In this document: positions 857 to 20,919 of the stretch, in pieces | Position numbering within the stretch: position 1 is the first letter of the stretch | Layout: each line of letters begins with the position of its first letter | Assembly (NCBI GenBank): GCA_020725925.1 | Contig: DYTN01000015.1 | Span: 1 to 40,136 of the forward strand | DNA: 40,136 nucleotides | Direction: 5' to 3' | DNA from: Methanobacteriota archaeon | GTDB taxonomy: Archaea; Thermoplasmatota; Thermoplasmata; UBA10834 | Made by a program: the position numbers and the translations under genes | Notes under the pieces: model-generated | What the model was told of the DNA's origin: nothing | The model's database searches: none | Seen by the model: only the letters and a program-made list of their open reading frames with translations

Positions 857-1588
857 GTGCCTCAGTTCAGGGTAGTGCTGGTAGAGCCGTTGAACGACGG
901 GAACATAGGCGCTGTCGCGCGCTCGATGAGGAACTTCGGGCTCGACGAGCTTGTGCTGGTGCGCCCGTGCGCGGTAGGAGAAGAGGCCGTCAAGCGAGCC
1001 ATGCACGGGATTGACATACTGAAGAACGCGAAGACGGTCTTCACGGACGACGAAGCCTTGGCCGATGCCGACTTCGTCGCCGCCACCTCGGGTGTGTCCA
1101 CGACCAACGAGAAGCACTTCACCAGGATCGCTCTCGATCCAGGCGAGTTCGCAGAGAAGATTAAGGGATCGAGGAAGAAGTTCTCTCTCCTGTTCGGCCG
1201 CGAGGACTTCGGGCTGGACAAAGAGATTCTCAAGCGCTGTGACTACCTTATCACAATACCCGCGAATCCGGCATACTCCATCTTGAACGTGAGCCACGCC
1301 GCAGCCATCGTCTTCTACGAGCTCTTCGCGTCAGGCGTGGTCATGTGGGAGCCGAGGGAGGCTGGTGAGGTCGAGAAGGAGAAACTCTACGAGTACTTCT
1401 CGATGCTCCTGGACGCAATCGACTACCCAGAGCACAAGAAGAGCAAGACCAAGGCGATGTTCAGGCGAATGATCGGCCGAGCAGTGCCATCGACTTGGGA
1501 GTTCCACACGCTCATGGGCGTGCTCGACGGTGCGATAGGCAAGGCCACGGCTGGTGCTTTGCCGAAGAAGGCCAGGAAGAAAAGTTGA
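857..1588 (+). CDS. trmJ: tRNA 2'-O-methyltransferase, TrmJ/SpoU family
   Basis: This SPOUT-class enzyme transfers a methyl group from S-adenosylmethionine to ribose 2'-OH; archaeal and bacterial TrmJ act on tRNA position 32. Three SpoU motifs are visible: NIGAVARSMRNFG near the N-terminus (motif 1), LLFGREDFGLDKE in the middle (motif 2) and IPANPAYSILNVSHAAA (motif 3, the trefoil-knot cofactor loop). The length of about 243 residues fits TrmJ, and a helical C-terminal tail follows the catalytic domain. An earlier in-frame GTG at 845 exists, but the only TATA box (826-832) would start transcription near 855, so GTG 857 (MPQFRVVLVEP) is preferred. A hairpin just after the stop codon probably ends the transcript. 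The substrate is inferred from the family. Confidence 0.9.
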   Translation: MPQFRVVLVEPLNDGNIGAVARSMRNFGLDELVLVRPCAVGEEAVKRAMHGIDILKNAKTVFTDDEALADADFVAATSGVSTTNEKHFTRIALDPGEFAEKIKGSRKKFSLLFGREDFGLDKEILKRCDYLITIPANPAYSILNVSHAAAIVFYELFASGVVMWEPREAGEVEKEKLYEYFSMLLDAIDYPEHKKSKTKAMFRRMIGRAVPSTWEFHTLMGVLDGAIGKATAGALPKKARKKS

Positions 1589-17902: not shown

Positions 17903-19081
17903 ATGTGGGAGACCATTGGCAAGAGCGTATTCAAGGACCAGCGCACGCTGTCGTTCGACTACGTGCCCCAGAAGTTGGTCCACAGGGAATCCCAGATGAA
18001 GAGGCTCATCATGCTCTACCGGCCAGTGGTCGAGTCCAACTTTGCCCAGAACGCGGTCCTCACGGGCAGCGTGGGCACGGGGAAGACCGCAACGGCCAAG
18101 CGCTTCTGCATGGACCTCAAGGATTTCGCTGAGAAGCAGCAGAAGGCGGTCGACTGGGTGCTGGTCAACTGCAGGCAGAGGAACAGCGAGTCGAGCGTCG
18201 TGCTCCACGTGGTCAACCACTTCCAGCCGAACTTCCCCGACAGGGGCTTCTCCATCACCGAGATGCTGAGGATACTCCGGAAGGACCTCGAGAAGCGCAA
18301 GGTGCACCTGCTCATAGTGCTGGACGAGGCCGACGTGCTGCTCAGGAAAGCGGGCTCGGACATCATCTACAAGCTCACGCGGTTCGGGGAGGAGAAGGTC
18401 GAGAGCAAGGAGCTCGTCTCGCTGATGCTCATCTCCCAGAAGAACGTGTACGACATGCTCGATACCGCCTCCGCGAGCACCTTCAAGCGCACCAACATAA
18501 TCGAATTCGGCAAGTACTCCACGGACGAGCTCAGAGACATCGTGAAGCTCAGGGCCGAGCTAGCGCTCCACGACGGGTGCATCGACCTGGACTCGGTCGA
18601 CCTGATCGCGGAGGTCTCTTCCGAATGGGGCGATGCGAGGTTCGCAATCGAGATACTCGAGAAGGCGGGCATGCTGGCGGACGAGGAGATCGCCGGGAGG
18701 ATATCAGTCGAACACGTGCGGGCGGCCAAGGCGGAGGCGTACAGCTCCGTAACGGAGTCAAAGCTGGCTGGCCTCGACAAGCACCAGAAACTCGCGCTCC
18801 TGGGCATAGCCAGGACCTCCAAGGGAAAGGCATACGTGACGACGGGCGAGGCCGAGGGGGCTTACAAGGTGGCATGCGAGGAATACGACGAGAAACCCAG
18901 GGCGCACACGGCATACTGGGGGCTGCTCAAGGACCTCGACACGCTCGGAGTTATCAGTGCTAAGAAGAGCGGCCCGGGGATATCTGGCAAGACCACAGTG
19001 ATAACCCTCCTCGACATACCCGCAAGGGTGCTCGATGAACGAATCCGTGCAATGCTCCAGGGGAAACAAAGGGCCAGATAG
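17903..19081 (+). CDS. cdc6: Orc1/Cdc6 replication initiator
   Basis: Orc1/Cdc6 proteins bind archaeal origins and load MCM. This 392-residue AAA+ protein has Walker A GSVGTGKT (55-62), Walker B VLDEAD (139-144) and a sensor-1-like region LMLISQKN. A C-terminal winged-helix domain begins near residue 290 (LDKHQKLALLGIARTSKGKAYVTTGE). The length is typical. ATG 17903 has no clear SD site; a TATA-like element at 17850-17859 gives a leader of about 20 nt. Initiator genes often lie beside an origin, but I see no convincing ORB repeats or AT-rich unwinding element in the short upstream gap. Confidence 0.95.
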   Translation: MWETIGKSVFKDQRTLSFDYVPQKLVHRESQMKRLIMLYRPVVESNFAQNAVLTGSVGTGKTATAKRFCMDLKDFAEKQQKAVDWVLVNCRQRNSESSVVLHVVNHFQPNFPDRGFSITEMLRILRKDLEKRKVHLLIVLDEADVLLRKAGSDIIYKLTRFGEEKVESKELVSLMLISQKNVYDMLDTASASTFKRTNIIEFGKYSTDELRDIVKLRAELALHDGCIDLDSVDLIAEVSSEWGDARFAIEILEKAGMLADEEIAGRISVEHVRAAKAEAYSSVTESKLAGLDKHQKLALLGIARTSKGKAYVTTGEAEGAYKVACEEYDEKPRAHTAYWGLLKDLDTLGVISAKKSGPGISGKTTVITLLDIPARVLDERIRAMLQGKQRAR

Positions 19082-19102: not shown

Positions 19103-19113
19103 CAACTATATAG
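19103..19113 (+). promoter_or_regulatory. TATA box of the DUF835 gene
   Basis: AACTATATAG lies about 45 nt upstream of the proposed ATT start and about 30 nt before the SD site GGGAGGG (19139-19145). The transcript would begin near 19134. Confidence 0.55.
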
Positions 19114-19152
19114 AGCTGGGTCAGTCTACGCCACTCAAGGGAGGGTTGGCCG

Positions 19153-19701
19153 ATTCCAGAGGAGGACAAGGCGGCCGAGGATCTCATTCGTACTGAGGAG
19201 GGCATTTGCTATGTCGTCAGAGAGCGCAAGCCCTTCCTGGCCTACAAGCTCTTCACATCCACCTTGACCGAGGGCGTGCCTGGCCTGTGCGTCACAAGGC
19301 AGTTCCCCGAGAAGGTCCGGGAGTCCTTCGAGCTCAAGGACACGAGGATCCTGTGGCTGAGCCACACGCCTGGTCAGGACCACCACAACCCGACCAGCAT
19401 CGGGACCCTCGCGACGGTCATCTCGTCGTTCATAGAGAGGTACAAGAGATGCGTCGTGCTGATAGACGGGCTGGAGTACCTCGTGATCAACAACGGGTTC
19501 CAGCAGGTCCTCAGGTTCGTTGAGCACATCAACGAGCAGGTGATGCAGAGCCGCTCCACCGTGCTGGTGCCCATCAGCCCCAACGCGTTCAGCGAGAAGG
19601 AGCTGGCGCTGCTGGAACGGAACGTCGAAGTCATAGAGCAGCCGTCCATGAGCCTCACGCTCGAGAAGGACTTCACGGCGCTGATCGACCAGTACCGCTG
19701 A
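19153..19701 (+). CDS. DUF835 domain protein with apparent ATT start codon
   Basis: The DUF835 domain covers most of the protein: FELKDTRILWLSHTPGQD, then VVLIDGLEYLVINNGF (a Walker-B-like strand without any Walker A) and VPISPNAFSEKELALLERN. The function of DUF835 is not established; it is common in archaeal signalling proteins. In this frame the region between the TAG at 19111 and TTG 19264 has no ATG, GTG or TTG, yet the family-like sequence starts well before 19264. ATT 19153 (IPEEDKAAEDLIR) has GGGAGGG 7 nt upstream and a TATA box at the right distance, so an ATT start giving 182 residues is proposed. A sequence error for ATG is the alternative. It follows cdc6 by 71 bp. Confidence 0.75.
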   Translation: MPEEDKAAEDLIRTEEGICYVVRERKPFLAYKLFTSTLTEGVPGLCVTRQFPEKVRESFELKDTRILWLSHTPGQDHHNPTSIGTLATVISSFIERYKRCVVLIDGLEYLVINNGFQQVLRFVEHINEQVMQSRSTVLVPISPNAFSEKELALLERNVEVIEQPSMSLTLEKDFTALIDQYR

Positions 19702-19767: not shown

Positions 19768-20919
19768 ATGCACAAGACCCCGATCCATGACGAGCATCTC
19801 TCGCTCGGCGCGAAGATGGTCTGGTTCGCCGGCTGGGACATGCCGATCCAGTACACTGGCATCATCGAGGAGCACATGGGGGTCAGGCAGCATTCGGGGG
19901 CATTTGACGTCTCGCACATGGGCGACTTCCTCATCAGGGGGATGCACGCTGGCGTTCTCATGGACACTCTATGCACGAACGAGGTCCAGTGCCAGCCACC
20001 TGGGAGGTGTGTGTACTCGCACATCCTCGACGACCAGGGCAGGATACTCGATGATACGATAGTCACGGTCCTGGGCGAGGACGAGTTCCTCATGGTCCCG
20101 AACGCCGCGACGACTCCGAAGATGCGCAAGTGGGTCGAGGGGCATGTCCACGGGCAGGAGTTCCACGACATGTCCACAGACCTGGCCTGCATAGCCGTCC
20201 AGGGCCCGACTGCCAAGGATGTGCTCGCGCAGCTCACGTCGGCGGACCTGAGCACCCTCAAGTTCTTCTGGGCCAGGTTCGCGAGATTGGACAGGATCCC
20301 TGCCGAGGGCTCGAGCCCAAGGACGCCCTTGTTGAAGGGACGGGCACTCGCCAACGGCCCAGGGAAGGGCGTCGTCGCGCTCGTTTCGAGGACCGGGTAC
20401 ACAGGCGAGGACGGCTTTGAGATCGTGTGCGAGAACGCGGACGCGGTGGACGTCTGGAGGGCGATCTTGGAAACGGGCAGGGCGCACGGGCTCAAGCCAG
20501 CGGGGCTCGGCGCGAGGGACACGCTCAGGTTGGAGAAGGGGCTGCTGCTCTCGGGCACGGACTTCGACGGCTCGCAGACTTCGGTCCAGACAGGCCCCAG
20601 CTGGGTTGTCGACTGGAAGCACGATTTCATTGGCAAGCAGGCCCTCGTGCAGCAGAAAGCGTCCGGAACCTACGACAAGCTCGTGTGCATGTTGGCCAAG
20701 GACAAGGGCATACCGAGGCACGGGTACGAGATACTCCGCGAGGGCCAGAGCGTCGGGACCGTGACCAGCGGGACGCTCTCGCCAGTGCTGAGGAAGGGGA
20801 TAGCCATGGGCTACGTGCCAGTCGGGCTCGCGCAGCCAGGGACAGAGGTACAGATCAAGGTCAGGGAGACGATGCTCCCGGCAGAGATAGTGAAGCCGCC
20901 ATTCGTGAAGAGGGATTGA
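19768..20919 (+). CDS. gcvT: Aminomethyltransferase (glycine cleavage T-protein)
   Basis: The T-protein transfers the methylene group from aminomethyl-lipoyl H-protein to tetrahydrofolate (or the archaeal pterin), releasing ammonia. Recognisable segments are MVWFAGWDMPIQYTGIIEEH, the folate-binding FDVSHMGDF, DDTIVTVLGEDEFLMVPNAA, RTGYTGEDGFEI, GARDTLRLEKGLLLSGTDFD and KDKGIPRHGYEI. A roughly 20-residue insertion (AEGSSPRTPLLKGRALANGP) precedes RTGYTGED. With ATG 19768 it has 383 residues. No H- or P-protein genes are in the window, so the partners lie elsewhere. The M42 peptidase gene starts one base after its stop codon. Confidence 0.92.
   Translation: MHKTPIHDEHLSLGAKMVWFAGWDMPIQYTGIIEEHMGVRQHSGAFDVSHMGDFLIRGMHAGVLMDTLCTNEVQCQPPGRCVYSHILDDQGRILDDTIVTVLGEDEFLMVPNAATTPKMRKWVEGHVHGQEFHDMSTDLACIAVQGPTAKDVLAQLTSADLSTLKFFWARFARLDRIPAEGSSPRTPLLKGRALANGPGKGVVALVSRTGYTGEDGFEIVCENADAVDVWRAILETGRAHGLKPAGLGARDTLRLEKGLLLSGTDFDGSQTSVQTGPSWVVDWKHDFIGKQALVQQKASGTYDKLVCMLAKDKGIPRHGYEILREGQSVGTVTSGTLSPVLRKGIAMGYVPVGLAQPGTEVQIKVRETMLPAEIVKPPFVKRD

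Follow-up and report, generated by a model that had tools for sequence, protein, structure and literature searches.

A DUF835 gene beside archaeal cdc6 very probably starts at ATT, with ATT or ATC in the same column in most of its genus

How does translation of a gene begin when its signals converge on a codon other than ATG, GTG or TTG? This question is raised by a DUF835 gene in a contig of a Methanobacteriota archaeon (DYTN01000015.1 of assembly GCA_020725925.1), analysed here as a window of 40,136 nucleotides, the whole stretch of DNA under study. The gene (19153–19701, forward strand, assigned by Pfam; 182 codons followed by TGA at 19699–19701) lies between its upstream neighbour cdc6/orc1 (17903–19081, forward; Pfam Cdc6_lid, Cdc6_C and AAA) and gcvT (19768–20919, forward; Pfam), which served as the downstream ATG control gene. 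The original prediction held that a TATA box, a Shine–Dalgarno (SD) sequence and the coding frame line up on ATT 19153, and the sequence bears this out. TATATA, the gene's own promoter element, occupies 19107–19112, and GGGAGGG, which aligns across orthologs, occupies 19139–19145 with its GGAGG core (19140–19144) 8 nt before the ATT (19153–19155). As the 3′ end of the 16S rRNA in the window genome reads GGATCACCTCCT, with an ordinary CCTCC anti-SD, this GGAGG is able to act as an SD. The claim that no in-frame ATG, GTG or TTG precedes residue 38 was likewise confirmed: between an in-frame TAG at 19111–19113 and codon 38 there is none in the window, the first being TTG 19264–19266. The GGAGG 8 nt upstream of the ATT, together with the TATA box 41–46 nt before it, argues against a leaderless gene.

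The signal from one genome was assessed in a sample of 547 gene models over 664 kb of the window genome (40 stretches plus the window). A GGAGG-type SD followed by a non-standard codon, away from any standard start, was found in 44 cases over 58 possible codons, a mean of 0.76. ATT accounts for one case, the DUF835 gene itself, and ATC and ATA for none; an SD followed by ATT is not above chance in this single genome. Simple scoring of the 547 models gave ATG as the standard start in 379, GTG in 128 and TTG in 36, with none in 4. A codon-usage score that takes no account of start codons placed the coding onset of the DUF835 gene at 19159, two codons past the ATT. In 20 of the 547 models, this gene included, coding sets in before the first standard start codon, by a margin of more than 4 nats; many of the 20 appear by eye to be wrong-strand or gap artefacts. 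With a single genome at chance level, it is the comparison between species that makes the case for ATT.

Orthologs of the DUF835 gene were collected from 17 of the 19 genomes of the family (E ≤ 1e-60) and from one of two further genomes of the order, 18 in total; none was found in the family genomes G005 (75% complete) and G014 (55% complete). The named relatives of the gene (16 loci) come from MAGs labelled Thermoplasmata, Thermoplasmatota or Euryarchaeota. The original prediction had suggested inspecting the codon in relatives, and within genus g1 the start column reads ATT in the window genome (G000), G007 and G004, ATC in G006, G002 and G001, and TTG in G003. ATT or ATC thus stands in 6/7 genus members that carry the gene, behind a similar SD and TATA box. 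In g2, the column is ATC in G010 and G008 and ATG in G012, the start of G008 having been placed by eye as two extra codons follow it; in g3 it is TTG in 7/7, and in g4 TTG in the single ortholog. The TTG of these eight g3 and g4 orthologs sits one codon nearer the protein body and its DDK motif than the column of the ten g1 and g2 orthologs. Altogether, ATG occurs in 1/18 orthologs and the weak codons ATT, ATC and TTG in 17/18. A column that alternates between ATT, ATC, TTG and ATG behaves as a start codon. This also bears on whether the ATT is a sequencing or assembly error for a true ATG, or part of a decaying or dead gene, as might be feared for a MAG contig. Five more MAGs of the genus carry ATT or ATC in the column, which makes an error unlikely, and the product is 82–87% identical within the genus with no internal stop; error and decay are therefore extremely improbable.

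The signals ahead of the column are conserved as well. By pattern search, a TATA-like box begins 44–49 nt before the start column in 17/17 family orthologs, and the same pattern did not find one in G019 of the sister family. Between the TATA box and the SD, family comparison revealed a further element, CAGTC (19122–19126, forward). A CAGTC-like element lies 27–30 nt before the DUF835 start in 17/17 family orthologs, with GTC in 15 and GTG in 2; it was not seen after other strong TATA boxes of the window genome (0/10 sampled). The association with cdc6 also extends across the set, as a cdc6 C-terminal match is present in 18/18 ortholog loci, window included (clipped by the contig edge in L008). 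In two other families (L024, L025 and L030), the DUF835 gene nearly abuts what reads by eye as the cdc6 C-terminus. Since this near-gapless order recurs there, the pairing may be old.

The substitution pattern marks where coding begins. Among the seven genus members, the mean pairwise difference at codon positions 1, 2 and 3 is 0.16, 0.11 and 0.54 over codons 2–6, and 0.16, 0.15 and 0.45 over codons 13–37, compared with 0.37, 0.63 and 0.40 over the 18 nt upstream. Coding-type substitutions are thus evident from codon 2 and absent upstream, which indicates that coding begins at the ATT column. Moreover, the leader of G004 is one base shorter than that of the other genus members, so that the upstream frame is lost there; this argues against the ATT being an internal isoleucine codon of a longer protein. 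By eye, [DE][DE][KR] is present at residues 4–6 in 17/18 orthologs, and no column among residues 1–16 is invariant in the 18. The motif, the distance from the SD and the pattern of substitutions together favour the given column, without forcing it in every relative.

Indeed, only the window genome strictly needs a non-standard start, and several relatives offer standard codons from which the protein could be made. In G004, an ATG lies in frame six codons upstream, at about the predicted transcript start, and a TTG follows the SD at a distance of 1 nt. The ATG of G007, eight codons upstream in frame, lies ahead of the transcript start suggested by its TATA box, and in G010 and G008 an in-frame GTG overlaps the SD. 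In G006, G002 and G001, standard codons fall at residues 11–15, ahead of the first invariant residue. In g3, an ATG stands in frame three codons before the TTG, 0–1 nt behind GGAGG, in 4/7 genomes (G016, G013, G017 and G015), and G003 and G019 have an in-frame GTG shortly ahead of their TTG. With these upstream codons present, the assignment of TTG as the start in g3, g4 and G003 rests on SD spacing. All of these codons speak for synthesis from a standard start elsewhere, be it at TTG 19264, at a leaderless site upstream or within the gene. Against this stand the window genome, which has no standard codon from TAG 19111 to codon 38, and the upstream frame, which is unconserved in the genus while codons 2–6 show the coding pattern.

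Relatives do not begin at the position of TTG 19264, the observation that the original prediction had named as counting against it. G17, Y20, E24, R25, K26, P27, L33 and F34 are identical in 18/18 orthologs, and all eight precede codon 38; in the structure model, the first strand (residues 18–23) and a helix (residues 28–37) also lie ahead of it. TTG 19264 was accordingly ruled out as the start. An out-of-frame TTG at 19146 combined with a frameshift was rejected too, since that codon is missing at this place in G007 and G002. With codon 38 falling behind the invariant residues and these structural elements, a standard start elsewhere is quite improbable. ATT as the start is well supported by the ortholog column, the SD and the onset of coding. 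On this comparison of sequences, translation very probably begins at ATT 19153, and the weak start is common to most of the genus, not the oddity of a single genome.

The product is a DUF835 protein (PF05763; 116.7 bits against a curated cut-off of 33.1, E 8.6e-34 by Pfam). Its predicted model has a mean pLDDT of 82.0, and the best Foldseek match is FlaH (4yds; E 9.8e-6, TM 0.61/0.51), followed by many KaiC chains. The model points to a KaiC/RecA-like fold that seems to lack a Walker A motif: by eye, the expected place of the P-loop reads ERKPFLAYKLF, which makes ATP binding unlikely. The label iKaiC given to DUF835 in PMC5847659 is consistent with the Foldseek placement. The protein shares with the archaeal DUF835/iKaiC entry of that paper the PF05763 match and the KaiC-like fold; it differs in being a stand-alone protein of 182 residues encoded beside cdc6, whereas the row in that paper gives REC-DUF835 and REC-PAS-PAS-DUF835. 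The DUF835 protein has 15 matches in the 2 Mb window genome, a large family. Our guess is that the product is a non-catalytic partner of Cdc6 held at a low level.

How, then, would the AUU be read? We propose, with a probability of roughly 0.8, that a short-leader mRNA presents an SD-placed AUU to initiator Met-tRNA, and that this is a weak start whose low output has probably been selected. Transcription from the gene's own promoter would yield an mRNA with a short leader, about 16–17 nt before the ATT judging from the TATA position. The leader GGAGG would pair with the anti-SD and set the AUU in the P site, where initiator Met-tRNA would read it with a third-position mismatch; the protein would begin Met-Pro-Glu-Glu-Asp-Lys. 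Initiation at AUU or AUC should be inefficient, with the strong SD compensating in part. Since aIF1 destabilises initiation complexes on non-AUG mRNA, according to PMC6237735, non-AUG starts should be weak.

The neighbouring and control genes bear on whether the low output is selected. The gcvT start column is ATG in 16/16 family loci where the gene was found (it was not found in the G009 locus), and in G019 of the sister family it is GCG after a GTG. Similarly, aIF1 (SUI1) was found in 15/19 family genomes and starts with ATG in 15/15. On the protein tree, in which 2/15 inner branches are well supported, the DUF835 start codons comprise four types with at least six changes, so that the weak codons seem to have been swapped for one another during evolution. 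With weak codons in 17/18 DUF835 columns while the adjoining gcvT stays at ATG, selection has probably favoured a low output of this KaiC-like protein linked to cdc6. It is also possible, though we favour it less, that the lineage simply reads near-cognate starts well and that ATT, ATC, CTG and other such codons drift without any selection for low output. Drift alone would not hold gcvT and aIF1 at ATG (31/31 loci) against 1/18 for DUF835; on the other hand, neutral tolerance draws support from further conserved non-standard starts in the family and from a change in the initiator tRNA specific to the order, both described below.

The original prediction had drawn a parallel with bacterial infC, in which an ATT start permits autoregulation by IF3. 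The AUU of infC lies behind an SD and its weak start limits expression, while its product, IF3, proofreads start codons and represses its own synthesis. The DUF835 gene resembles infC in having AUU behind an SD, with a weak start proposed; it differs in encoding a KaiC-like product, in belonging to an archaeon, and in that the codon varies among AUU, AUC and UUG from one species to another. The start-codon part of the parallel therefore holds and the initiation-factor part does not, as the product is DUF835 and aIF1 is a separate ATG gene. An infC-like circuit was rejected, the DUF835 gene encoding no initiation factor by Pfam and Foldseek. Feedback of this kind, in which the product or a factor under its control tunes start-codon stringency and hence its own synthesis, has in its favour that the codon class is that of infC and that the weak start survives several codon changes. 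It is highly unlikely, given the KaiC/RecA-like domain of the product and the uniform ATG start of aIF1, the archaeal stringency factor. Titles cited by PMC9845219 give AUU as the start of infC in Escherichia coli.

The DUF835 gene is not the only one in the family with a candidate non-standard start. From the list of 20 models, three further genes were compared between genomes (CDP-alcohol transferase, Ham1 and CooC-like) and three more, including FTR1 and PriL, were examined by Pfam only. The CDP-alcohol phosphatidyltransferase gene (PF01066; L092:478-1053 in G000:C11, and L122–L136) was found in 15/19 family genomes and starts with CTG in 13/15 and TTG in 2/15. Matches were obtained in 87/100 class genomes; among the best 22 new loci, the same column is TTG in the order member G019 and, outside the order, ATG in 17, TTG in 2, GTG in 1 and CTG in 1. 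By eye, the gene overlaps the preceding one, and coupling may help its start. The CooC-like ATPase (L109:10929-11684 in G000:C19, and L155–L167) was found in 13/19 family genomes, and its starts, read by eye, are CTG in three (G000, G007 and G005), ATG in seven and GTG in two. In G005, an ATG also lies in frame, six codons before the CTG, and in G009 an in-frame stop is followed by CCA TTA ACG, of which ACG is by eye the likeliest start. For Ham1/NTP pyrophosphatase (L116:13324-13875, minus strand, in G000:C73, and L137–L153), the column matching the ATG, TTG, CTG or GTG of relatives in the class comparison reads, by eye, ACG in 14/17 and GCG in 3/17. An ATA lies three codons after that column in 15/17, and the Ham1 start was given no weight in the argument. 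Two side observations concern an FTR1 iron permease gene (L109:2409-3245, minus strand) with a possible CTG start, and the primase large subunit gene PriL (L092:1048-2073, minus strand), whose first 26 codons after the stop hold no standard start. With these other conserved non-standard starts in the family, the original view of ATT initiation as a great rarity among archaea may overstate the case for this lineage. In Methanosarcina mazei, CTG has been reported as the start of 5% of unannotated small ORFs (PMC11456600).

The initiator tRNA of the order differs from that of other members of the class. In the window genome (L067; G000:C36:14636-14710), it has A1:U72, a CAT anticodon and the stem TCAGG/CCTGA, so that the pair 29:41 is A:U. 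A class-wide search gave a match in 89/100 genomes, four of which yielded an elongator tRNA only. A29:U41 in place of G29:C41 is present in 11/11 initiators read from the order (L067, L225–L233 and L235 among the loci cited), representing 9 of 10 sampled family members and 2 of the sister family. Outside the order, G29 is present in 74/74 readable class genomes, one partial copy counted, and C41 was seen in 19. With 11/11 in the order set against 74/74 outside it, G29:C41 probably changed to A29:U41 once, in the ancestor of the order. In L237 (G045:C74, ~1250–1550, minus strand), the intact initiator tRNA gene is preceded by three partial copies of its anticodon region, at a spacing of ~114 nt. 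The 16S positions that we take to be G1338 and A1339, by E. coli numbering assigned without an alignment, appear unchanged in the window genome (GGA in CTGGATTCCGTAG).

The altered pair lies in a region tied to the fidelity of initiation. The three GC pairs of the initiator are described as nearly universal and as crucial for fidelity (PMC7531240), and the 29:41 pair makes an A-minor contact with 16S rRNA in P. abyssi (PMC7005279). PMC11497404 reports that a 30:40 swap lowers discrimination against CUG in vitro and that, in E. coli, the 16S change G1338A allows spurious initiation at CUG. The present case shares with that work a change of a GC pair in the anticodon stem of the initiator; there the changes were engineered, at 30:40 or in 16S rRNA, whereas here a natural change from G29:C41 to A29:U41 is fixed in an archaeal order. 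Taken further, the order may have loosened its initiation code: a compensated A29:U41 would weaken checking, AUU, AUC, CUG and perhaps ACG would be conserved in several genes as starts that act as graded volume controls, and standard gene finders would truncate or miss such proteins across the order. We regard this extension as tentative and rather doubtful, for three reasons. The link between A29:U41 and non-standard starts is a coincidence on one branch; CTG or ACG start candidates also occur outside the order (L213, L187, L192 and L196), that of L213 in G093, a G29 genome; and three loci of the sister family, which shares A29:U41, start with TTG (DUF835 and CDP-alcohol transferase in G019, Ham1 in G020).

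We know of no archaeal gene with a conserved AUU or AUC start. A search of the literature by title and abstract opening, with most subscription journals outside its reach, found neither conserved archaeal AUU/AUC starts nor the A29:U41 change. Non-AUG initiation as a kind is known; the new aspects are that it is conserved here in archaea and that it may be connected with a changed initiator tRNA. In 36 prokaryote groups, start codons at a fixed site were reported to switch between species, with weak starts tending to have a strong SD, and switches from AUG to AUU numbered 1 of 61,358 and from GUG to AUU 1 of 5,080 (PMC5622118). The DUF835 column is like those groups in switching at a fixed site behind a strong SD; unlike them, it holds ATT or ATC in most members of one genus, which is far from the published switch rates. 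Gene calling limited to ATG, GTG and TTG would give such genes wrong N-termini. The order-specific A29:U41 connects the DUF835 start to the fidelity motif described in PMC7531240, and the conserved AUU/AUC column offers a natural test of how strict the archaeal ribosome is about its start codon.
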